From: a virus
Strand: one strand, 5' to 3'
Length of the DNA: 38,548 nucleotides
IMG/VR virus record: IMGVR_UViG_3300002052_000016
Span: 1-38,548 of that record
A program made the position numbers and the translations under genes. The notes under the pieces were generated by a model that was not told where the DNA came from, searched no databases, and saw only the letters and a list, made by a program, of their open reading frames with translations. Of the stretch, positions 1 through 22,752 are shown piece after piece (positions within the stretch are counted from its first letter, which is position 1; each line of letters opens with the position of its first letter).

Positions 1-1529
1 GCTCCGCCCCATTGGTACATTAGATAAACATTGAGACTGTGCGCGATCTCATGCTGCAACACTAGCCGCAACCGTTCGGGTTTCAGATGTATATCGAGTC
101 GGATTTCGTTGCCCGTCCAGTACGCCAGATCATGATCATCCATCGGGTTCTGAACGCGTGGATGGTCGACCGTGATCAAAGTCACTCCGACCTTTTTATC
201 GAATATCTCTTTCGGTGTTTCGTCGATGACTTTCTGAATCAGTGTCACCTTCACCGGATCACCGACTCGAATCGAGCAGCCTTTATCGGGAACGACGTGC
301 TTGAACGTCAGGTTGCCTTGCGCCTTACGCAGATCATAGTTTAGATAATCTGAGCGCTTCAAATCCTTCGGCACCATGTTCCCTTCGTCATCGAATTCCC
401 ATCCAGCCGGTACATGAACGATCTCGCAGCCGCACCATGGATGCACCGTGCCGACAACCGCTTTCCAGTCCCGACGCTTCCGCCCGATATTCGAACCATT
501 CGCGATCAGTTGCGATAACTTGAATATGCGGGGGTTGCTTCCCGGCCCTGCTACCAGATGCAAACGCACGCAATCGTCGCACGCATCGGGAGCCGGTTGC
601 TTCGCAACGAAGATAGTTTCAGGGTCGCCCTCTTTCTCGATAAGCGCTCCGACAAATCCCTCTTGCATCGCTTTCTGTTTCTCGGTTGCCGCGATGCGCT
701 TGAACCCTCTCGCCCAATCCCCGGTCTTGTGCCCTAGCTCACTCGCAGCCTTTCGCCACTGATCACGCCGGGCAACGTTGATATCGATCTCTTCGCGAAT
801 AGCTTGTTGATAACGCGCCTTCAACTCAGCATCGTTTTCTATCGCAATCGTTGTGAAGTCGCTGGCGACGGTATTGCCCAGCCCTTTTATCTCTTCTGCC
901 GCGTGCTGTTGAATCCAGGTGCGTGCCGCTTTCTCTTGCGGTGACAGTGGCGGCTCTCTGCGCCTGCGAAAGCTCGCAGCGGTCATCTCGCGCGCGTGCG
1001 GGCGCATTGCAGGCGTGCCGCCCATCATTTTCCCGTAATTGTACGCATCCGCGATGACCTTCCGCGCTTCTGGCGGTAGTTCCCCCGGTGCGGGTTGATA
1101 AGTATATGCTAGGTCTTGTGGCAGTATCCCGATATCGATAAGCCGTTGCACCGCTTCTGGCGGTACGAATGCCGGTCCTACCTGCGTGATGACGAATGCG
1201 AGATGGTAGTCGACGATAATCTGTTGAAGAGCCGCTAACTGTTGCGGCGTGAACATCGGCTGATACGATCCATTCGCCTTGCCCAGCGATGCGAGGATAA
1301 TCTTTTTCTCGATATAATCCTCGATAACTTTTTTTATTTTATCGAGTTGCTTGGCGTATGCTTTCTCGAAGTCATCCGCCATTTCCTGCATGGCTTTATA
1401 GCGCTGAAAAGTGCGCTCGCTGTATTTGATCTGTTCGGCTTTGAGAAGTAGCTGATAGGGTGCGATGACGGCTTGCGCGATATCGACCGCGTGCATATGT
1501 TTGGGAGCTTCGATGCGCAGCTTTGCCAT
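1..1529 (-). CDS. Mu-F-like minor head protein with C-terminal metallopeptidase motif (partial, runs off left edge)
   Basis: An open frame of 509 codons runs from ATG at 1529 to the window edge without a stop, so the 3' end is missing. The first 300 residues are helical and charged. At about residues 317-370 there is a CxxC pair (DACDDC) followed about 45 residues later by HPWCGCEI, which matches the zinc-like signature of Mu gpF / SPP1 gp7 head-morphogenesis proteins (usually HPNCRC). Such proteins sit at the portal and are made with the head genes. After that comes a separate domain ending in HEIAH (residues 493-497), the HExxH zinc-peptidase signature. Inference: a minor head protein carrying a peptidase domain, either for head maturation or as an injected effector. 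The start is supported by GGGAG seven bases upstream. The last gene before it (1545-1817) ends 15 bp upstream. Confidence 0.75.
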   Translation of the reverse strand, partial: MAKLRIEAPKHMHAVDIAQAVIAPYQLLLKAEQIKYSERTFQRYKAMQEMADDFEKAYAKQLDKIKKVIEDYIEKKIILASLGKANGSYQPMFTPQQLAALQQIIVDYHLAFVITQVGPAFVPPEAVQRLIDIGILPQDLAYTYQPAPGELPPEARKVIADAYNYGKMMGGTPAMRPHAREMTAASFRRRREPPLSPQEKAARTWIQQHAAEEIKGLGNTVASDFTTIAIENDAELKARYQQAIREEIDINVARRDQWRKAASELGHKTGDWARGFKRIAATEKQKAMQEGFVGALIEKEGDPETIFVAKQPAPDACDDCVRLHLVAGPGSNPRIFKLSQLIANGSNIGRKRRDWKAVVGTVHPWCGCEIVHVPAGWEFDDEGNMVPKDLKRSDYLNYDLRKAQGNLTFKHVVPDKGCSIRVGDPVKVTLIQKVIDETPKEIFDKKVGVTLITVDHPRVQNPMDDHDLAYWTGNEIRLDIHLKPERLRLVLQHEIAHSLNVYLMYQWGG

Positions 1530-12986: not shown

Positions 12987-14687
12987 TCAATCCCCTAGTT
13001 CTATTTCGATAACCTGAGTGTTTTCTTTCGCCTTACGCAATCGCTCTTTGCGCTCCCGTATTGATTTTTCGAGCAAGATAGCGGCGTGCTTCAATTCGCG
13101 TTGTGAGCGCATGAATTCCTCTTCGCCGCCCTCTTCGCTGCCGAGATCCGTTTCGTCGCTTTCTCCGCCGCCCCCGAACTGATCACCGTACTGATCTTCA
13201 CTCCCGTCGCTTTCGCCGGGTCCGAGATCGCCACCCCCGCCCTGCTCCGCCATCGCCTCTTTGCCTTGCAGGTATTGTAGATAAGTTGGATTAAGAATCA
13301 GATCACCGTATTCCAACGGTTCGTGATCTAGCTCTGCGCGAATCTCGTTTATCGTTCGCCAATTCTGTACTTCATCTTGTCGACGCTTACGCTCTTTCTC
13401 TTCAGCCTTCGCGTCCAGCCCGCTGAATGTAAACTCTAGATCCGGAGCCTGCTCCCAGATAAGATGTTGATTGATGTAATCCTGAATGTGCTCTGCTAGC
13501 GGGATCAGTCCTTTATCTTTTGACTCGACAACCTCTTCTTTTTGCGGACGCGCCTGATTCAACCCGCCGCGCTGCCCCGTATTGCCAAAGATAAAATTGA
13601 TTTCAGTCGGATCTACACCGTAGATAGCGCAGATTAACTTAGTCAACCAATCCATCCATGCCGAGAATTCCATTTCCCGGTTAGACGAATGCATGTTGAC
13701 CCACTGAATATCTTCAGAGTTAAGAATCGGGGTCTTCCAGGCATTCTGTACGCCTGCAACCATCGCGTACCACTGTCGACGAAACGCCCGCAGTTGCCGA
13801 TCAGGAATCGCCCCTTTGATATTCAGCAACCCTTTTATCGCGCTACCTTGCGTAAAGAATCGCGTATTGTATTCGAAACCGAAAAGCCATGCAGTAACGA
13901 GTCGAACGATTTGTTCTACCGGGCTGAATCCGAAACTATTGGTTCGGAGATCGCTGCGCGGGTTCATGATGCACCACGCGATATCGTCGACTGCGAATTC
14001 CGCGATAACCGTATTCTCGTAAACTTGAACGTGACTCACCCGGTCACGTCTCTGCGCCGGGTCCATGTGCTCTATGTCAGCAACAGCGGGTCTGATCGTC
14101 TCTGCGGGCAAACAGATAAAACGCGAAATCTTTCCGGAACGATCTCGTATCTTCTCAAAACACCATTGATCGTATGTGAGAATATCCCGTGTAGACTTTC
14201 GCAGAAAGTGCCGAAACGAATCGCGATCAGATGGACGCTCATCCGGCAATAAATAACCGGTTGTTTCCAGCATCGCTTCGAGCTTCGATGCCATCTCTTG
14301 TTCGGCATCACTCATCGACTTTTCATTGTCGCGCCGATCCCGAAGCACAACCCGAAAACCGCGATCGTACACCTCTTGCTGCGGTCTGGAAAAATGCGAG
14401 ATCTGATTCGTGCGCAAATTGATAATCGCTGCAATGACCGTGTTCTGTACCGACATGATCCGCAGCGTCTCGTATGTGAGCGCAGACGGGCGTTGCCGCC
14501 AGCCTCCCCAATCCATTACCGTATACGGATCGTGAAAGAGCGCTCGCGGCTTATCGGTAGTCGGTTCCGCTAATCCAGTTGCGACCAGCGCTTTTTGCAT
14601 TTCATCGAACGGTACATCATCTTCCGAAGTCAACGCCCATTGCGTGACTTTCCGTACCGTCGACCCTATTTGATCGAGTAATGCCAT
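12987..14687 (-). CDS. phage portal protein (HK97/SPP1-like), 566 aa
   Basis: The portal forms the dodecameric ring at the head vertex for DNA passage. The sequence shows the usual order: N-terminal clip/wing region (QTVRKVT...ETLRIMSVQNTVIAAIINLR), a middle with FEKIRDRSGKISRFICLPAE, the stem-type segment SFGFSPVEQIVRLVTAWLFG, FEYNTRFFTQGSAIKGLL, then the IYGVDPTEINF region typical of HK97-type portals, and a long acidic C-terminal tail (EEGGEEEF). The ATG overlaps the stop of the large modular protein (TAATG). The length is usual for this family. Confidence 0.88.
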   Translation of the reverse strand: MALLDQIGSTVRKVTQWALTSEDDVPFDEMQKALVATGLAEPTTDKPRALFHDPYTVMDWGGWRQRPSALTYETLRIMSVQNTVIAAIINLRTNQISHFSRPQQEVYDRGFRVVLRDRRDNEKSMSDAEQEMASKLEAMLETTGYLLPDERPSDRDSFRHFLRKSTRDILTYDQWCFEKIRDRSGKISRFICLPAETIRPAVADIEHMDPAQRRDRVSHVQVYENTVIAEFAVDDIAWCIMNPRSDLRTNSFGFSPVEQIVRLVTAWLFGFEYNTRFFTQGSAIKGLLNIKGAIPDRQLRAFRRQWYAMVAGVQNAWKTPILNSEDIQWVNMHSSNREMEFSAWMDWLTKLICAIYGVDPTEINFIFGNTGQRGGLNQARPQKEEVVESKDKGLIPLAEHIQDYINQHLIWEQAPDLEFTFSGLDAKAEEKERKRRQDEVQNWRTINEIRAELDHEPLEYGDLILNPTYLQYLQGKEAMAEQGGGGDLGPGESDGSEDQYGDQFGGGGESDETDLGSEEGGEEEFMRSQRELKHAAILLEKSIRERKERLRKAKENTQVIEIELGD

Positions 14688-17600
14688 TATCGCTTACAAG
14701 TACACGCCCCGTGCGGGTTCTGAAAGTTTTGATCCTTCGTAAGATCACGCGAGCCATGAATAATACAACTCGCGTTCACATTTGCTCTCACCGACTGATC
14801 CGGATAAAGCTGTCGCACTTTTGACTTGTGTAGCACACCGACATCACCGAACGGATTACCTGGCATGGGAACTGCGGGGCGAGCATCCGGCTCACTTGCC
14901 AGTTTTACGCCCGGTGCGCCTTGCGCCCACGGGTTCTGTTCGCTCGCCAGCATAACTTCACCGGTCGGGCTTGCATCCCCGGTAACACCCATACTGGTCA
15001 TCGAATCCCAATCGGTCGAAAAATAACTGCTGGCCGGATCGTTGTAATCTCGACCCGACGGTTTCGAATCTGATGGGGTCGCAATGAAGTTCCGCTGCTT
15101 GATAATATCTGCAAGCGTTTGCTGCGTAACTTTGTATTTCTTAGTCGCGCGCATTAGATTTTTATCTTGCGGCATCTGCCGAACGAGCATCTGCATCGCC
15201 TCTTGCGCTGCCCGCGTGTAAATATCCTCACCCGCTGTCAACGCCTTCAAACGATTGCGGCAATCGTAACTGGTTATCGCTTCTTTCACGAAGCCCGCGA
15301 GATATTCGAAGAGGTACGCATCGGGAAGATCCTTGGCCTTGCCGTCGCGATCATCGTACGAGTAAATACCCTTACTCAATTTATACGTGTCGCCCTCTTG
15401 CTGGTACATCGGCTCGCTCCCTTCCGACTTTTTTGTTTTTCCGGACGCCATCAACGCTTCGTGAAAAGTTTTTCCGGGGTAAGGATCTGGCTTCCGCTTC
15501 TTTTCAGCTTCCGCTCGTTCCGATTCGCCGATTGCATCTCGGAACCGCTGAATTTTCTCTTTATGATCTTCAATCCACCCCTTCAATTCTTTATGCGCAT
15601 CCGACTCTTCTTTCCGCTCACCCTCTGGAATATATTTGCCAGTAACAGTTGACCAGACTTCGATAACATGCCTCTTCAAATGCGGAGTCGACCACACAGT
15701 TCTAACACGAGGGGGATTATTTCTTAACAGCCTCAAATCTCGTTCTAACTTTTTTGAATCAAGCGACAATGGGGATTTTTCTACCCACTTTTGCGCCTGC
15801 GCTAACTTTTGTTTCGTAGCAGGACCGAATTGCTTTTCACCTTTCCATGGAATCGTATGCTTCGGATCAGCCCATTGTCCACCCTTCGGGCCGATATACG
15901 GGCCAGCCTTCGATAACACTTCAAGTTGATCGATTGCATCCATGGATTTCATCTCCGTATACTCCTTCATATACCCGAAGATTTCCTGATAGTTATCTTC
16001 CATCGTGCGCGTGTTCGAGCCGACCGCCGGGCGTTCCGTTCCACTGCGTGAAACGCCGTACGTCTTCGTATCTTGCATTTCATCGGCAGGAATAACCATC
16101 TTACCCATCATCTGCGGTTTCTTTTCGGGCTTCTGCGGCGGCTGTTGCCCCGACTTCATCGGCGGTTGACCTTTGCCGTTTTCATCTTTACTGCGCATCG
16201 CTGGATGACTGCCATTGTTACCGTTGCCGTTACCATTCCCGTTCATCGTGTGATGCGACGGGGGCGGCTTCGGTGCGCCATTGCTGTTTTGATGCGCAAG
16301 ATAATCATCGTACGCTGCTTTGTGCGGCCCGGCATCGAAATGGTGCTTCTGCGCGTGCTTCATCGCACCATGCACTAGCTCTTCGGGAATATCGGTGCCC
16401 TGCAACCCTTGCTTGCGCGCCGCTTTCCATTGTTTGAAATGCTCGTAATGCTCACTATGATGCGGCATTTCCCAATGCGCGCCTTCGGGAGTTTCATCGC
16501 TCACCACGAAACGCGCATCTTCGGGCCGTTCGTCTTCCGATAAAAGTTCGAATGTAAATTCACCGGGCTTTTCGGGATTCTCGATTTTAGTTTTATATTC
16601 TCTCTTATCGCCCGGCTGCGGCTTGCCATCATTACCGTTCGGTTTCTTTCCAAAAGGAGGCTTATCATTTTTCTTATCAGCTTTCTGATCTTTACTCTGT
16701 CCCTCTTTATTCATAAGATCGGCAAACTTCCCGATCAGATCAATCGCATCACCGACCATCTTTGCCGCGAGCCGTTCCTTTGCCTCTTTCTTCGAACCAG
16801 GCGCACCGGTTCGCCGACTGAACGTTTCGAGACTAACTTTTTCGCCTTCGATAATCGGAGCCTTGCCTTGCGCAACTCTTTGCGTGTTCGCGTTCTTTGC
16901 TTCCGCCAATGCGCGCAACGCGCGCCTGATACCGGGCGTGCGCTTACCAAGCATTTCGATTGCGTCGACCATCTTCGCTTCCGGTAAATTCTTTCCCTTC
17001 ACTCTGCGCGACCATTCGCGCGCTTTCCCTTTCGGCAACTCTCCGCGCGCTTCGGCTGCAAACGCCCATCTCCGCTGCGCTTCGCTTACAGGATGCGGAG
17101 TCTTTTTCCTCGCAGCCTTTTCGAGTTGATCGATCGCATCCATAGCAACCTCTGATTTTCTAATTCGGTGCGGACCATCCGCATGAAGATACTCGCCTCT
17201 GCGATGAAATCCTTTGCCATTCCACTTAAATTGGGAACGCTTTTTCGGGCCACGCATACCGATATAACCACCATGCGTATAGGTGGTAGTAATCATCGTG
17301 GGACTTACACTTTCTATCCGCATTTCATTGTGCTGCCCTTTTCCAACAATATCGCCAGTTCGTAATTGTGCCGCATGTGATTGTGTAAAAAGATGCGTTT
17401 CATTTTGCGGTTTAGGTTTTTCCGGAACTGCTTTCCCCGACAATTGATCATAAACTTCTTTCCAAGTGCTACCAGTCGCAATTCGCTTATCTCGCGTTTC
17501 CCAATCATACCCGCCGGGTTTTGGTTCACTTTGCCCCAAGTCAATTACGCCGACACCTCCATCATGTAAATTACGCATCACCGGCTTTACACCGATACGC

Positions 17601-18664
17601 GTTTCTTGATTGCGACGAATCATTCTCAAAATTTCATCTTCATATTCCCGTTCTGTTTGCGGGCCTTTTTTTTCCGCAGTAGGCGTTTCTTCTTTCCATG
17701 GGATCGTATGCTGGGGGTCTGCCCATTTACCACCCTTCGGGCCAATATAAGGACCGCCTTTCGATAACGGCGCAAGTTGATCGATCGCGTCCATGGCAAC
17801 CTCTGATTTTTTTATTGTCGAATCCGCTTTTTGACGATGCAAACGCATACCATGAAAAATTTGTTTTTTAGCGAGATCCGGGCCTAATGGATAAACTTTA
17901 CCGCTTGCCTTCCAACGCGAATAAACACCTTCAACTGCCGACCGTTCGCTATCGTTTGGCAGTCCACCTTTCTGCCAATCCGCAGACAAGTCATCTACTG
18001 TTGCATGATGAATGTAATCGAATGCTTTTTCTTTCTGTCTTACTTTATCAAGATATTTTTGGTAAGCCGCCTTTTTTCGATCTTCTTTCGCTTCTCCGCC
18101 ATTCACATGCGCGCCCGATCCGTGCGCCCGCTCGTACGCTTCTTTCGTATAGTAATAATCATACGGGCGCTTCGGGTTACCTGTCGGTACGCGACGATAA
18201 TACGCGCCCCCGCGCGCCTGCCCTTTCGACAACTCTTCAAGTCGATCAATCGCATCCATCGACTTCTTTATATACTGCTTTTTGAACGCGCTAACCGGGC
18301 CTTCCCATGTCGGTTCATGCGAAAACGTATGCCGGTGCGCCCGCTCCCATTCTTCTTTCGTCACACTGGAAAAATCAGCATCTTTCTTTTTATGAAGAAT
18401 ATCGTGAAAAAGTTGAAACGCTTTTTTGTTCTTTTCGTGCTCGTTATCAAGATGCTCTTCAACGTGTTTACGACGTTCGGCGATTGCTTGCTGCATTTCT
18501 TTCGCAGACGTACCAAGCGGCGCATTGCCTTGTTCGTGCTGCCGCTTCAACCGTTCGTGCGCGTCATGAAGAAACTTTCCCCGTTCATCACCCGGATACA
18601 AATAACGATAACCACCACCCGGCTTCGGATAACGCGCAATATAGTTATGCCCATGCGGCTCCAT
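14687..18664 (-). CDS. large modular head-associated protein with internal repeats, 1325 aa
   Basis: A highly hydrophilic, K/E/G/P-rich protein. It is built from cassettes headed by a short helix motif MDAIDQLE-LSKG, seen at about DNA positions 18240, 17780, 17140, 16950 (VDAIEML), 16750 (GDAIDLIGK) and 15930. Two of them continue GPYIGPKGGKWADPQHTIPW, a peptide I recall from other large phage head proteins. Others continue with YYRRVPTGNPKRPYDYYY or SEAQRRWAFAAEARGELPKG segments, and the N-terminus has ARYPKPGGGYRYLYPGDE. Residues about 690-870 are a low-complexity linker rich in N, G, P and H. No catalytic motif is recognised. It sits between a SKAQ-type head protein and the portal. Inference: a scaffold, internal head or ejected protein made of docking cassettes. 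Confidence 0.75.
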   Translation of the reverse strand: MEPHGHNYIARYPKPGGGYRYLYPGDERGKFLHDAHERLKRQHEQGNAPLGTSAKEMQQAIAERRKHVEEHLDNEHEKNKKAFQLFHDILHKKKDADFSSVTKEEWERAHRHTFSHEPTWEGPVSAFKKQYIKKSMDAIDRLEELSKGQARGGAYYRRVPTGNPKRPYDYYYTKEAYERAHGSGAHVNGGEAKEDRKKAAYQKYLDKVRQKEKAFDYIHHATVDDLSADWQKGGLPNDSERSAVEGVYSRWKASGKVYPLGPDLAKKQIFHGMRLHRQKADSTIKKSEVAMDAIDQLAPLSKGGPYIGPKGGKWADPQHTIPWKEETPTAEKKGPQTEREYEDEILRMIRRNQETRIGVKPVMRNLHDGGVGVIDLGQSEPKPGGYDWETRDKRIATGSTWKEVYDQLSGKAVPEKPKPQNETHLFTQSHAAQLRTGDIVGKGQHNEMRIESVSPTMITTTYTHGGYIGMRGPKKRSQFKWNGKGFHRRGEYLHADGPHRIRKSEVAMDAIDQLEKAARKKTPHPVSEAQRRWAFAAEARGELPKGKAREWSRRVKGKNLPEAKMVDAIEMLGKRTPGIRRALRALAEAKNANTQRVAQGKAPIIEGEKVSLETFSRRTGAPGSKKEAKERLAAKMVGDAIDLIGKFADLMNKEGQSKDQKADKKNDKPPFGKKPNGNDGKPQPGDKREYKTKIENPEKPGEFTFELLSEDERPEDARFVVSDETPEGAHWEMPHHSEHYEHFKQWKAARKQGLQGTDIPEELVHGAMKHAQKHHFDAGPHKAAYDDYLAHQNSNGAPKPPPSHHTMNGNGNGNGNNGSHPAMRSKDENGKGQPPMKSGQQPPQKPEKKPQMMGKMVIPADEMQDTKTYGVSRSGTERPAVGSNTRTMEDNYQEIFGYMKEYTEMKSMDAIDQLEVLSKAGPYIGPKGGQWADPKHTIPWKGEKQFGPATKQKLAQAQKWVEKSPLSLDSKKLERDLRLLRNNPPRVRTVWSTPHLKRHVIEVWSTVTGKYIPEGERKEESDAHKELKGWIEDHKEKIQRFRDAIGESERAEAEKKRKPDPYPGKTFHEALMASGKTKKSEGSEPMYQQEGDTYKLSKGIYSYDDRDGKAKDLPDAYLFEYLAGFVKEAITSYDCRNRLKALTAGEDIYTRAAQEAMQMLVRQMPQDKNLMRATKKYKVTQQTLADIIKQRNFIATPSDSKPSGRDYNDPASSYFSTDWDSMTSMGVTGDASPTGEVMLASEQNPWAQGAPGVKLASEPDARPAVPMPGNPFGDVGVLHKSKVRQLYPDQSVRANVNASCIIHGSRDLTKDQNFQNPHGACTCKR
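15841..15945 (-). repeat. 105-bp direct repeat, copy 2 (in the modular protein gene)
   Basis: Aligns without gaps to 17692-17796; I count 19 mismatches by eye (about 82% identity), many in third codon positions. Encodes MDAIDQLEVLSK and the GPYIGPKGGQWADPKHTIPW peptide. Confidence 0.85.
17692..17796 (-). repeat. 105-bp direct repeat, copy 1 (in the modular protein gene)
   Basis: Partner of 15841-15945. Encodes MDAIDQLAPLSK and GPYIGPKGGKWADPQHTIPW. Further, more diverged copies of the MDAIDQL helix alone lie at about 18240 and 17140. Confidence 0.85.
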
Positions 18665-18665
18665 T

Positions 18666-19466
18666 TTATCGCCTCTTCGACTGGCCTTGAACCCGCTCGT
18701 AATTTATTCCTACACCTTCGGTGAGCCTTTTCTTATCGTCTCCGAGTTGCTGCGCTGTAAGATAATGTACCGGAGTTGTCGCAACATCGCCAGTGGACGT
18801 TTCGCCATAACGATAACGCAACTGCGGTTTATCGTCTTTTACTCCATGTATGCCAGCAAAATTCAAATCGCGCCACATACTCTGCCGACGCTGCCTGCTT
18901 TGCTCTGCTTCTTTATCTTGACGTTTTTTTGCCTCCGGACTGAACCACATTTCCCAATCAGGAAAATGCGGCATCTGCGTTTCTGGACGAACTGTTATAC
19001 CGATCTGTTGCGGGTCACCACCGACCGGCCCGCCTTTCTTCATCGGTAAACCGATAATCGCTTGCACTCCGACATCGCAACGTATCCGACTGTCTTCAAG
19101 TCCAGCCGTCGTGCCCGACCCTTGCCGCATGTGCCATTCGCCCGGTGCGTCAATAATCGCTCCGAGCTTTGCACCGATATGATTCTTTCCGCGCGCCCAA
19201 TTGCGCACGTCTTCTTTTCGCGGGAACGCTCGCTTATCGAAAATCAACGTATGTAGCAAATAGCCGGTTTTGCATTCGGTCAGCTTCGCGAGCATCGAGC
19301 CATGAACTTTTGCGAGCTTCACTACGTCTTGTAGTTTCTTCCCGTTTATCTTTGCGACCTGTTCCGGCAACTTTTTTGCATCCGGCGTATGTCCCGCCCA
19401 CTCGCGCGCCATTTCAGGCTTGTTCGCGAACATCCAGCGCATTTGCTTTTTCGATTGAAACGGCAT
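18666..19466 (-). CDS. head-associated protein of the 'SKKQMRWMFANKPE' type, 266 aa
   Basis: I take ATG 19466 (MPFQSKKQMRWMFANKPEMA), which overlaps the upstream stop (TAATG) and has GGAG; a start three codons earlier is possible. The N-terminal sequence followed by REWAGHTPDAKKLPEQV matches a short conserved block common in phage head-module proteins (FKSKAQ-RWMFA-KPEIA-WA-TP...LP). The remaining 220 residues are not recognised; GEWHMRQGSGTTAGLEDSRI is a notable glycine-rich turn region. The stop lies in the ribosome site of the 1325-aa gene. Confidence 0.65.
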   Translation of the reverse strand: MPFQSKKQMRWMFANKPEMAREWAGHTPDAKKLPEQVAKINGKKLQDVVKLAKVHGSMLAKLTECKTGYLLHTLIFDKRAFPRKEDVRNWARGKNHIGAKLGAIIDAPGEWHMRQGSGTTAGLEDSRIRCDVGVQAIIGLPMKKGGPVGGDPQQIGITVRPETQMPHFPDWEMWFSPEAKKRQDKEAEQSRQRRQSMWRDLNFAGIHGVKDDKPQLRYRYGETSTGDVATTPVHYLTAQQLGDDKKRLTEGVGINYERVQGQSKRR

Positions 19467-20362
19467 TATCTCCATTCCAGCCGAATCGCCCGCTGCTCCG
19501 GGCTACGGTATACAAACGACTTTTTTACCTCTCGACTACCCTCTGCCTCCATACGCTTCAATCGTGTGTAGTAATCCGCAATTTCAGCAAGATGATCTTT
19601 CGCCACTTCTTTTGCAATCGCCGAATTGCTTGTATGTTCTTTTTCGACTTTGATCCCCATGGCAAGTTGCTTTTTATCGAACTTGCTGTCGGGCGTATCT
19701 CGGTGCTTTCCGACATTGCGAATGAACGTAGCGATCAGCCGATAAATTCTTTCTTCAAATCGGTGCTCATCAATGCCGAGCTTATTCGCGAACGCGTGAA
19801 CTTGTTTATCAGATGGCTTCGGGTTCTTTCGAAAGAACTCGATAATCTTTGAATCTACTTCATCTGCTTTTTGCAACGCATCCGACTTCCCCCATTGAAT
19901 ACCCGGTACTGTCCGATTGCGATTCAGATCGGTATCGTACTGCTTTTTCCACCATGCCCGCGCCCGCTTCGCGATTTCAAGCCGAGCATCGGACGGCACC
20001 GATTTCATGCTGCGCAACAGTTCGGTCAATTTCCCTTGCGCATGAAACAACCGTTGCGTTTGTGTCTTCGGGCTGAATGACGGGTTTGTATCAACTATCG
20101 CTTTTTGAATGCGCTGTTCATCCGCTTGCTGCAATCCGAGTCCACGCGTTACATCATCGATAAGAACGACATGCCGCTCCGCTTCGGCTGTTTCGGGCTT
20201 CGTCCGGAATAGCCTCTGTGCCATCAACTGCTCTGATTGAAACTCCCCCAATCCCGCACGCGCACGTTCTCGCAATCGCGCGGGTGACGCCATGGACGGA
20301 ACATATCCTGGCGTTTTGGGAGTTATCCGGCTGAGTTCGGTGCTTTTAACGAAGTATCTCAA
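19466..20362 (-). CDS. hypothetical head-region protein, 298 aa
   Basis: I propose the TTG start at 20362: GGAGG lies seven bases upstream, whereas the ATG at 20410 falls inside a perfect hairpin and has no ribosome site. The protein is helical and basic, e.g. RLRERARAGLGEFQSEQL and KVEKEHTSNSAIAKEVAKDH. A segment KRARAWWKKQYDTDLNRNR is striking. No family recognised. It lies between the 20495-20908 gene and the head-associated gene, with TAATG coupling to the latter. Confidence 0.65.
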   Translation of the reverse strand: MRYFVKSTELSRITPKTPGYVPSMASPARLRERARAGLGEFQSEQLMAQRLFRTKPETAEAERHVVLIDDVTRGLGLQQADEQRIQKAIVDTNPSFSPKTQTQRLFHAQGKLTELLRSMKSVPSDARLEIAKRARAWWKKQYDTDLNRNRTVPGIQWGKSDALQKADEVDSKIIEFFRKNPKPSDKQVHAFANKLGIDEHRFEERIYRLIATFIRNVGKHRDTPDSKFDKKQLAMGIKVEKEHTSNSAIAKEVAKDHLAEIADYYTRLKRMEAEGSREVKKSFVYRSPEQRAIRLEWR

Positions 20363-20408
20363 CCGGACACCTCCAATGCTAACGGTGGCCCCGCCACCAC
20401 GCGAAAGC

Positions 20409-20435
20409 ATGTCGGGGGCGGCTCACCCCCGACAT
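20409..20435. terminator. GC-rich hairpin, 10-bp stem
   Basis: ATGTCGGGGG (20409-20418) pairs perfectly with CCCCCGACAT (20426-20435) around seven bases. No T-run follows on the minus strand, so it may slow transcription or protect RNA ends rather than terminate. It lies between the 20495-20908 and 19466-20362 genes. Confidence 0.5.
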
Positions 20436-20985: not shown

Positions 20986-22752
20986 CTAGAATAGATTAAT
21001 TTCAGAATTATCGCCACGCTCTTCGGGCGGGCCTAGCAAGACATCCATGTAATCTTCATCATCGCCCGGTTCTTTATCGTCTTCTTTGTTATCGTCTTCA
21101 TCGAACGCGAAAGAAAAGCCCGCAGAACGCGCAGCTTCGTCGGCGAACCACCATGCCATCACCGTATCGTCATGTACGCCTATTCCCTGCAATTTCCCGT
21201 CAACATAACCGAACTGCGAGCACTCTTCCATCCAGATATCGGTAATGGCCCGACTATACTCATCACCACGGGGGATAACAAGTTTCTTATTTTCGAGAGT
21301 AATCCGCAAGCCCGGCACGCCTTTATCGAGAGGATATTTGTTGACCGCAGTAGTAACAAATTCTTTCACCGGCAGATCGGTCATCCGCCGCATCTCATCG
21401 GTATACAACTGCTGCATCGCATTCGATTCGATATAAATAAGAGACGGATCGTACCGAGCCGCTTCGATTGCAATCTGCTGCAACTGATCACGAAACGATA
21501 ATCCTTTTGATCGATGTATGTCGACGAGATATCGATTGCCTGCTTTATCCTTTGCCAATGTAAAGATAACAAAATAATCCGCGCCCACGCTGGCGCTGCG
21601 CGCAATGTCGACCCCCATAAAAATCGTCCAGCCCCGTTGCTCGATTGCCTCTTTTGTCGGGCGCAACGTTAAAACCTCATCGAACAGGGGCGGGAATAGA
21701 TAAGTCGGAAAAATCGAAATGTCATCATTGATCGCAAGGCACATGATCTCACGCGCGAATGCGATCGGCCCAATCTCTTTCTTTTTTTCGTAAAGCTGCG
21801 CCAGTGACCATCGCCACGGAAACAGCGCTCGTTCTTTCCCTTCGTCGCGAAGAATGCCTGGATAACGAAAGAACTTGTAAACTTCATTCTTTTCAAGCCA
21901 ACCGAAAAGGTCCGCCATGTGATAGGGAGTGCCGACTACAATACATTGCCCGCCTTCGAACCAATCGCCGTGTTGCGTGTACGGCATAACCATGTTGACG
22001 ATAGCGGACTGAAAGTACGCAATGTTTTTCTGGCGCACCGTCTCCGACCACATATCTTCATCATTCAACGGATCATCGAGCACAACGTATTTCGGGTGAC
22101 GACCACGGATTGCCTTTCCGTATCCAACCGCCCGCAATCGCGAGCCGTTCGTCAAGATAACATCGTTGCGATTCAGCCGCGTACGTCTACGGGGATCGCG
22201 AACAGCATCTTGATCCGGAACGAGATGCGAAAGCTTCGGAATATCGGCAATCCCTTTTAGATTGTTCCGACCCCATAAGATTATATCGATAAACTCTTGT
22301 GCCTGCTCTTGCGTCTTCGAGAAAATATAAATTTCGACGCCCGGCTCTTTCCACGCCCACCATATCGGGCACACGTATGAAAAGAACGTGCTCTTCGAAT
22401 GGTCACGCGCAGCCTGGATCGCAAGCCGCGCGTGCTTATTTATCAATTCCGACCACTCTTCAAGATGCGCGCCGATCTCGACACCGAGAACATCGCGCCC
22501 GAAAAGCGCAGCCGACGATTCTAACAATTGACGATAAACTTCTCGCCAATAGTTATCGTCTTCATCGCCGAATCCGGCAGTTTGAATGCGCATTCCCGCG
22601 TGCGGGCCAGGATCTTCATCGATCGGTGCCGCCGGGTGATGCGGAAGAGGTAATGGCCGCGCTTTCTTTCCCGACTTTATCGGAGAAACGGGTATCGGCC
22701 GCGCCCGCTTAGTCGAGTGCGGTTTTACACCTGTAGCGCTACTGCCGGGCAC
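20986..22752 (-). CDS. terL: terminase large subunit, 588 aa
   Basis: The packaging motor: ATPase plus headful/cos nuclease. Walker A variant ARDHSKST at residues 115-122, Walker B YVVLDD at 222-227 with the acidic DPLNDED after it. The RNase H-like nuclease has D382 (MGVDIA), E442 (IYIESN) and HDD at 527-529 (GVHDDTVMA). A basic, proline-rich N-terminal extension of about 50 residues precedes the ATPase. The start is GTG at 22752 with a weak ribosome site; ATG at residue 54 is an alternative that keeps all domains. The acidic C-terminal tail (DEDDNKEDDKEPGDDEDY) is likely the portal-contacting end. Confidence 0.95.
   Translation of the reverse strand: MPGSSATGVKPHSTKRARPIPVSPIKSGKKARPLPLPHHPAAPIDEDPGPHAGMRIQTAGFGDEDDNYWREVYRQLLESSAALFGRDVLGVEIGAHLEEWSELINKHARLAIQAARDHSKSTFFSYVCPIWWAWKEPGVEIYIFSKTQEQAQEFIDIILWGRNNLKGIADIPKLSHLVPDQDAVRDPRRRTRLNRNDVILTNGSRLRAVGYGKAIRGRHPKYVVLDDPLNDEDMWSETVRQKNIAYFQSAIVNMVMPYTQHGDWFEGGQCIVVGTPYHMADLFGWLEKNEVYKFFRYPGILRDEGKERALFPWRWSLAQLYEKKKEIGPIAFAREIMCLAINDDISIFPTYLFPPLFDEVLTLRPTKEAIEQRGWTIFMGVDIARSASVGADYFVIFTLAKDKAGNRYLVDIHRSKGLSFRDQLQQIAIEAARYDPSLIYIESNAMQQLYTDEMRRMTDLPVKEFVTTAVNKYPLDKGVPGLRITLENKKLVIPRGDEYSRAITDIWMEECSQFGYVDGKLQGIGVHDDTVMAWWFADEAARSAGFSFAFDEDDNKEDDKEPGDDEDYMDVLLGPPEERGDNSEINLF

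Follow-up and report, generated by a model that had tools for sequence, protein, structure and literature searches.

Introduction

Polyvalent proteins, whose stock parts include the ART-PolyVal, ddrB-ParB and InPase domains (PMC5512222), have already been likened to viral polyproteins (Iyer et al. 2017, PMC5512222). In phage HK97 the capsid protein gp5 is cut at K103/S104 (PMC10275583). In phage P1 the mature capsid protein gp23 begins SVAAEM (PMC9024508), and 69 residues are thought to be removed from DarA (PMC12810830). Described here is P0001, a gene on the minus strand (14687-18664) of the IMG/VR virus record IMGVR_UViG_3300002052_000016; the window analyzed is this whole record, 38,548 bases long and probably a fragment. 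P0001 is one open frame of 1325 amino acids (aa) that precedes the portal gene, an order kept in its relatives. The data support its description as a head-module gene in which one recurring helix comes before each of several different cargo segments. On sequence evidence, it is probably a polyprotein in which a prohead protease cuts at both ends of each intact helix.

Modular organization of P0001

Six helices of the DAI[DE]x[LI] type are present in P0001, four good and two degenerate, and none of 20,000 composition shuffles of the protein contained more than one. The first-pass annotation had claimed at least six MDAIDQLE-type helices, each heading a different segment, and this is borne out. 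The good helices are near identical (MDAIDRL at aa 136; MDAIDQL at aa 291, 508 and 908). With all features of P0001 on the minus strand, tag 1 (SMDAIDRLEELSK, aa 135-147, 18224-18262) and tag 2 (SEVAMDAIDQLAPLSK, aa 287-302, 17759-17806) both lie between IKK|S and LSK|G, tag 3 (SEVAMDAIDQLEK, aa 504-516, 17117-17155) lies between IRK|S and LEK|A, and tag 6 (SMDAIDQLEVLSK, aa 907-919, 15908-15946) lies between EMK|S and LSK|A, the former without a hydrophobic residue at P3. The K-S or KSEVA directly upstream of the helix is also common to the copies. Degenerate tags 4 (MVDAIEML, aa 565-572, 16949-16972) and 5 (MVGDAIDLI, aa ~636-644, 16733-16759) are followed by LGKR and IGKF, which are not Lys sites, and these two worn helices are probably dead joints.

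A different segment follows each helix, and two of these share GPYIGPKGG-WADP-HTIPW. The long repeat pair that had been noticed around this motif is real, with 81% identity over 114 nucleotides (15832-15945 and 17683-17796). It holds copy A of the GPYIGP module (aa 304-326, 17687-17755) and its partner, copy B (aa 921-943, 15836-15904), both of which match the module pattern. The ratio of nonsynonymous to synonymous differences (pN/pS) between the copies is 0.15 over 36 codons; since they differ mostly at synonymous sites, the repeat peptide is under selection. Helix plus GPYIGP module was modeled by AlphaFold2 with low confidence (predicted local distance difference test, pLDDT, 70; predicted template modeling score, pTM, 0.28), and for this reason no fold is claimed.

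Among the other cassettes, an N-terminal HNYIAR..GYRYLYP module (aa 6-25, 18590-18649) resembles HKYIxR modules that stand behind tags in relatives, and a GGAYYRRVPTG..YYYTKEAYE module (aa 148-189, 18098-18223) has relatives in contigs L046, L005 and L107. A QRRWAF..LP module (aa ~524-561, 16982-17095) is matched in L046 and resembles the N-terminus of the gene at 18666-19475, and the segment at aa ~682-899 (15968-16621) is shared with a homologous gene of L090 (E values 1.5e-25 and 3e-24). Searches of P0001 against Pfam, PHROGs, NCBIfam, PADLOC and solved structures gave no match above curated cut-offs.

The last 227 residues (aa 1099-1325, 14690-15370) form a constant C-terminal domain behind LSK|G, conserved in 25 rows, some of them from overlapping loci of one contig. 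The boundary ahead of the domain reads [LM]xK[GS] and the portal gene adjoins in all 25, and the modular gene is directly upstream of the portal gene in 25/25 family matches. The claimed location near portal and head genes is thus confirmed, in an order conserved in relatives. The domain ends in a zinc-knuckle-like CIIH..CTC (aa 1300-1323, 14696-14767), and a terminal CxxH..CxC is found in 20 of the 25 rows. A helical bundle is predicted at ~aa 1115-1191 (pLDDT ~90); the predicted structure of the domain gave no match of weight in PDB or BFVD. The region ahead of the domain ranges from ~120 to >1000 residues, and its cassettes are highly variable.

Relatives and recurrence of the helix

A search with the whole of P0001 found no relatives, but patterns for the modules and the helix did. 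The pattern GPYIGP[KR]GG occurs in 62 stretches of IMG/VR, to which helix patterns add further ones; the seeds of the tag profile were hand-picked. In related contigs the helix M[DS][AG]IxxLxx[LF]xK[GA] precedes modules of five or more kinds (GPYIGPRGGKWADPxHTIPW, HKYIxR..GxWxYxYP, RGGxYxRR..YYY, RGGxIIGHTxSGKPIY and TPIGGxTPGGYK). Several of these contigs have 2-5 helix copies in one frame, and in L004, L084, L090 and L091 separate genes have the tag at their N-terminus or close to it. The repeats are accordingly not limited to the two 105-bp copies first seen, and the claim of different cargo behind one recurring helix extends to the relatives. Matches to AMDAIDQL were mostly an unrelated replication-type protein, and matches to MDAI elsewhere (MDAIPGL, MDAIKLL, MDAIAKFF) were set aside as chance. 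The peptide GPYIGPRGG was absent from the papers searched. GPYIGP-bearing proteins elsewhere contain Zeta toxin, ART-PolyVal, ddrB-ParB and InPase domains. The sole bacterial genome match to the module is in a Myxococcales metagenome-assembled genome (L120, CP070713.1), where portal and MuF homologues adjoin; this locus is a possible prophage and a hint of the host.

Recurrence of a Met-headed helix at gene starts also suits an account in which translation starts, or once started, at each MDAIDQL Met from a Shine-Dalgarno (SD) sequence of its own, giving a set of N-terminally shortened products or recording growth by addition of 5' cassettes. Met is kept in most tag copies, a strong SD precedes 62% of internal tag ATGs versus 17% of control in-frame ATGs (Fisher p 1.3e-5), local RNA structure is weaker at tag ATGs (-10.5 versus -14.8 kcal/mol, p 1e-4), and start codons with a good SD occur in excess 11-15 codons ahead of GPYIGP. 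However, synonymous recoding of the upstream peptides gave almost equal SD strength (combined p 0.066), so that the conserved K-S-E peptide may itself explain the signal. Several internal copies retain the helix but have no Met (e.g. KKSGDAIDGL), and nested genes would give no reason for the Lys joints that occur in MuF, before InPase and ahead of the constant domain. Internal starts were an early leading idea, dropped after the recoding test failed and the K-S/K-G brackets were found. The account is now considered unlikely, although old starts left internally by 5' growth fit the data as history, and a few of these may still be used.

Lysine joints and site statistics

With Phi denoting L, I, V, F or M, the candidate cleavage consensus is Phi-x-K-[A/S/G]. 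Every good helix has K-S on its upstream side and Phi-x-K-[G/A] on its downstream side; both marks are present in 4/4 good tags of P0001, against a background of 0.5% of positions. In 67 aligned module sites Lys is almost invariant directly before [G/A]GPYIGP, and 34 of 77 sites have an upstream K-S, against 9.6 expected. The joint also precedes 18 of 21 InPase domains (3.4 expected) and marks the border between MuF and cargo in many MuF proteins. Counts of Phi-x-K[ASG] were 58 observed to 8.1 expected in the scaffold (~7-fold), 41 to 7.9 in the protease (~5-fold), 146 to 68 in the modular family and 121 to 66 in MuF. Enrichment was less in the portal (91 to 61) and absent from the terminase large subunit, TerL (14 to 18.5), and from the replication and TerL genes of the window (7 to 11). 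Replacing Lys by Glu in the consensus gave no excess, and replacing it by Arg gave no comparable excess. The residue behind Phi-x-K is A, G or S in ~80% of cases in scaffold and protease versus 19% in TerL and replication proteins. Every capsid protein examined has one Phi-x-K[ASG] site at aa 27-30. In four more diverged phages the scaffold pattern was repeated, and the capsid site was found in all three with the capsid gene present.

These statistics bear on whether the helices are an uncut docking array that binds portal, scaffold or capsid and stays in the mature protein, the Lys being part of an ordinary linker. The recurrence of an amphipathic helix under purifying selection and the adjoining portal gene in every relative suit such an array, as does the scaffold of L123, which starts with a weakly similar MDGIxxLDELVKA (E value 0.013). 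Against it, the sites are specific for Lys and for a small residue, and they cluster in those proteins for which processing is expected, with no enrichment in others, which makes an uncut array improbable. The helix is more aptly viewed as a linker that could be excised at two predicted flanking protease sites than as a docking tag, and the suggestion in the first-pass annotation that the protein is cut at the tags is favored by the site statistics.

An HK97-like (S78-like) prohead protease was detected in 10 of 14 related contigs by a profile whose seeds were four such proteases from relatives; the four contigs without a match are the window and three short contigs. Behind the protease gene come a scaffold-like protein and then the capsid gene; the capsid model PF05065 found no match in relatives. 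The consensus at which this protease cleaves looks to be Phi-x-K-[A/S/G]. The C-terminus of the protease and the N-terminus of the capsid protein share a short similar segment around a Phi-x-K site (secondary matches, E values 3e-5 to 8e-5). The segment reads [LV]xK[AS]LxAG..PG.GFxLRxE[SA]LE in L121-L124, L129, L130 and L155-L157, and looks as if one processing or targeting motif served both proteins.

HK97 and P1 served as controls. The site count recovered FNK|S, the sequence at the HK97 gp5 cut, and of the 5 Phi-x-K[ASG] sites in gp5, 4 fall within the delta domain that is removed or at its end; HK97 gp4 showed no excess (1 site versus 1.1 expected). The capsid cut of P1 is taken as MLE|S because of the N-terminus of mature gp23. 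In the P1 protease Pro, eight Phi-x-E[ASG] sites were counted where 2.0 were expected, and none with Lys; DarA carries LLE|A at 66-69, near where its presumed 69-residue removal ends. Since FNK|S and MLE|S were both recovered, the count reads the residue before the cut (position P1) correctly at two known capsid cuts. The controls also bear on the proposal that the joints are cut by the metallopeptidase-like domain behind MuF rather than by the prohead protease. An HExxH motif is present downstream of the MuF domain in the window and in many relatives, and Iyer et al. have proposed that polyvalent domains are set free by embedded peptidases (PMC5512222). Yet scaffold, protease and capsid N-terminus, on which prohead proteases normally act, show the same consensus, and HK97 and P1 both point to the prohead protease; a metallopeptidase is thus a very improbable agent.

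Several points weigh against processing of P0001 by a prohead protease. Two of its six helices are not followed by a Lys site, and about one in ten GPYIGP sites has no Lys. The window record ends inside MuF, before the expected place of the protease, and TIGR01543 and PF04586 match the protease of relatives weakly, one of the four passing the Pfam cut-off. No enzymatic domain was recognized in P0001 by family-library scans. The counted proteins are related, so that the z-scores overstate independence; the better support is the repetition in diverged phages together with the HK97 and P1 controls. Modular anatomy, portal synteny, site consensus and site placement are read from sequence, as is all the evidence for the polyprotein reading.

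Proposed processing of P0001

For the preferred reading, cleavage by a prohead protease, we infer cleavage, packaging, ejection and cargo function as follows. One chain would be made in which the recurring amphipathic helix joins small cargo modules, in polyvalent style, to each other and to a constant C-terminal domain; the helix, the C-terminal domain or both would retain this chain uncut in the prohead, as do the HK97 delta domain, the T4 capsid-targeting sequence and the DarA N-terminus of P1. Before cleavage the helix may serve in targeting, scaffold contact or spacing. An HK97-like prohead protease would then cut K|S and Phi-x-K|[G/A] within the prohead, the double cut excising the helix as a peptide of 13-16 residues and freeing each cassette and the C-terminal domain. 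The freed pieces would remain with the DNA and enter the host. The portal-side position and the polyvalent cargo of relatives point toward such packaging and ejection.

It is proposed more tentatively that the MDAIDQL helix with its two Lys sites is a transferable load-and-release tag: effectors would be placed behind copies of it, the prohead protease would cut both of its ends in trans, and a single portal-side gene would thereby fill the head with separate proteins whose cassettes can be reshuffled one at a time. This would be a genuine viral polyprotein strategy in tailed phages. The preferred reading, if right, would explain how portal-side proteins of the polyvalent type turn their shuffled modules into separate working parts, embedded peptidases being the only means of release suggested so far. 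The cleavage consensus of each phage would be readable from sequence (Lys here and in HK97, Glu in P1), processed head cargo would be predictable from genomes, and the short tag would be a candidate for loading cargo into phage heads.

Neighboring genes and related loci

The order recurring in relatives is TerL, DUF5661 gene, PHROG1375-like gene, modular gene, portal, small gene and MuF. In the window, where all of the following genes are on the minus strand, P0001 lies between the portal gene (12987-14687; PF04860 3e-25, phrog_12 4e-50) and two small syntenic genes, PHROG1375-like and DUF5661 (18666-20410), which adjoin the TerL gene (20986-22752; PF17289, phrog_38). The C-terminal tail of the portal protein has two Phi-x-K[AS] sites (LEKSI 539, LRKAK 550), and the tail may for this reason also be trimmed. 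The MuF-like head protein (3-1529), cut off by the window edge, has a Lys joint, LRKA 399-403, followed by a metallopeptidase-like C-terminal part with HEIAH. In MuF homologues of L031, L054 and L062 the GPYIGP module is inserted exactly behind a common DLRKA joint.

Further cassettes and C-terminal regions were observed in relatives. The portal-side protein L077:4188-7202 (+) has an N-terminal MDAIEQL tag and its own dispersed repeat, ~[RS][GA][RK]MxEEPxGxEYAxLGAxMR, in at least 4 copies. A cassette of L083:3923-7591 (-) resembles a piece of the Mg-chelatase/ComM fold (FRAPHHTVS..GGTLHLDEPH, PF01078, E value 0.008). Contigs L107, L117, L048, L025 and L024 form a second group with the same tags and the same place before the portal gene, but another constant C-terminal region, which contains a CPxC..CPxCG zinc ribbon. 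On the minus strand of L122, the open reading frame before the protease encodes a small InPase-like protein with PLRKAG and then a CPxC..CxxC zinc ribbon, the same Lys joint linking two unrelated modules.

Comparison with known systems

The proposed processing resembles HK97 gp4/gp5 maturation in the Phi-x-K|small form of the site (FNK|S), in the HK97-like protease of relatives and in the helical nature of the removable part. It differs in that HK97 loses one N-terminal domain of a capsid protein, whereas here many internal joints of a cargo protein are concerned. With DarA, Hdf, DarB and DdrB of P1, which with Pro are an example of defense-related internal head proteins processed in the prohead, it shares processing in the prohead; however, the protease of P1 reads as specific for Glu, and DarA is shortened by a single N-terminal piece and has no tandem tags. 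The internal proteins of T4, with their capsid-targeting sequence, and the ejection proteins of SPN3US and phiKZ (PMC10052503) are packaged, ejected and trimmed by a prohead protease, as is proposed for P0001. The cuts identified in SPN3US remove N-terminal propeptides, except for the C-terminal one of the protease itself, whereas joints between cargo and cargo are predicted here; and unlike capsid-targeting sequences of the T4 and P1 type, the tags of P0001 are all internal, although the tag is N-terminal in some relatives. As in MuF polymorphic toxins (PMC5576092), a head-module protein has variable cargo, and the MuF proteins seen here have the same Lys joint before the cargo. P0001, however, has no MuF domain, its own constant domain is unrelated and stands at the C-terminus, and MuF is encoded separately. 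Polyvalent proteins are similar in having several modules, which in P0001 are of at least five types, each with relatives in other contigs, and in being coded beside portal, terminase and MuF genes; in relatives, polyvalent ART-PolyVal, ddrB-ParB and InPase domains co-occur with the same short modules. A recognized effector or DNA-binding domain is present in module-bearing relatives only, and because P0001 has no recognized domain of its own, it is described as built like a polyvalent protein rather than filed as a member. At the joints, where embedded peptidases are proposed for polyvalent proteins (PMC5512222), P0001 has a repeated helix bracketed by predicted prohead-protease sites.

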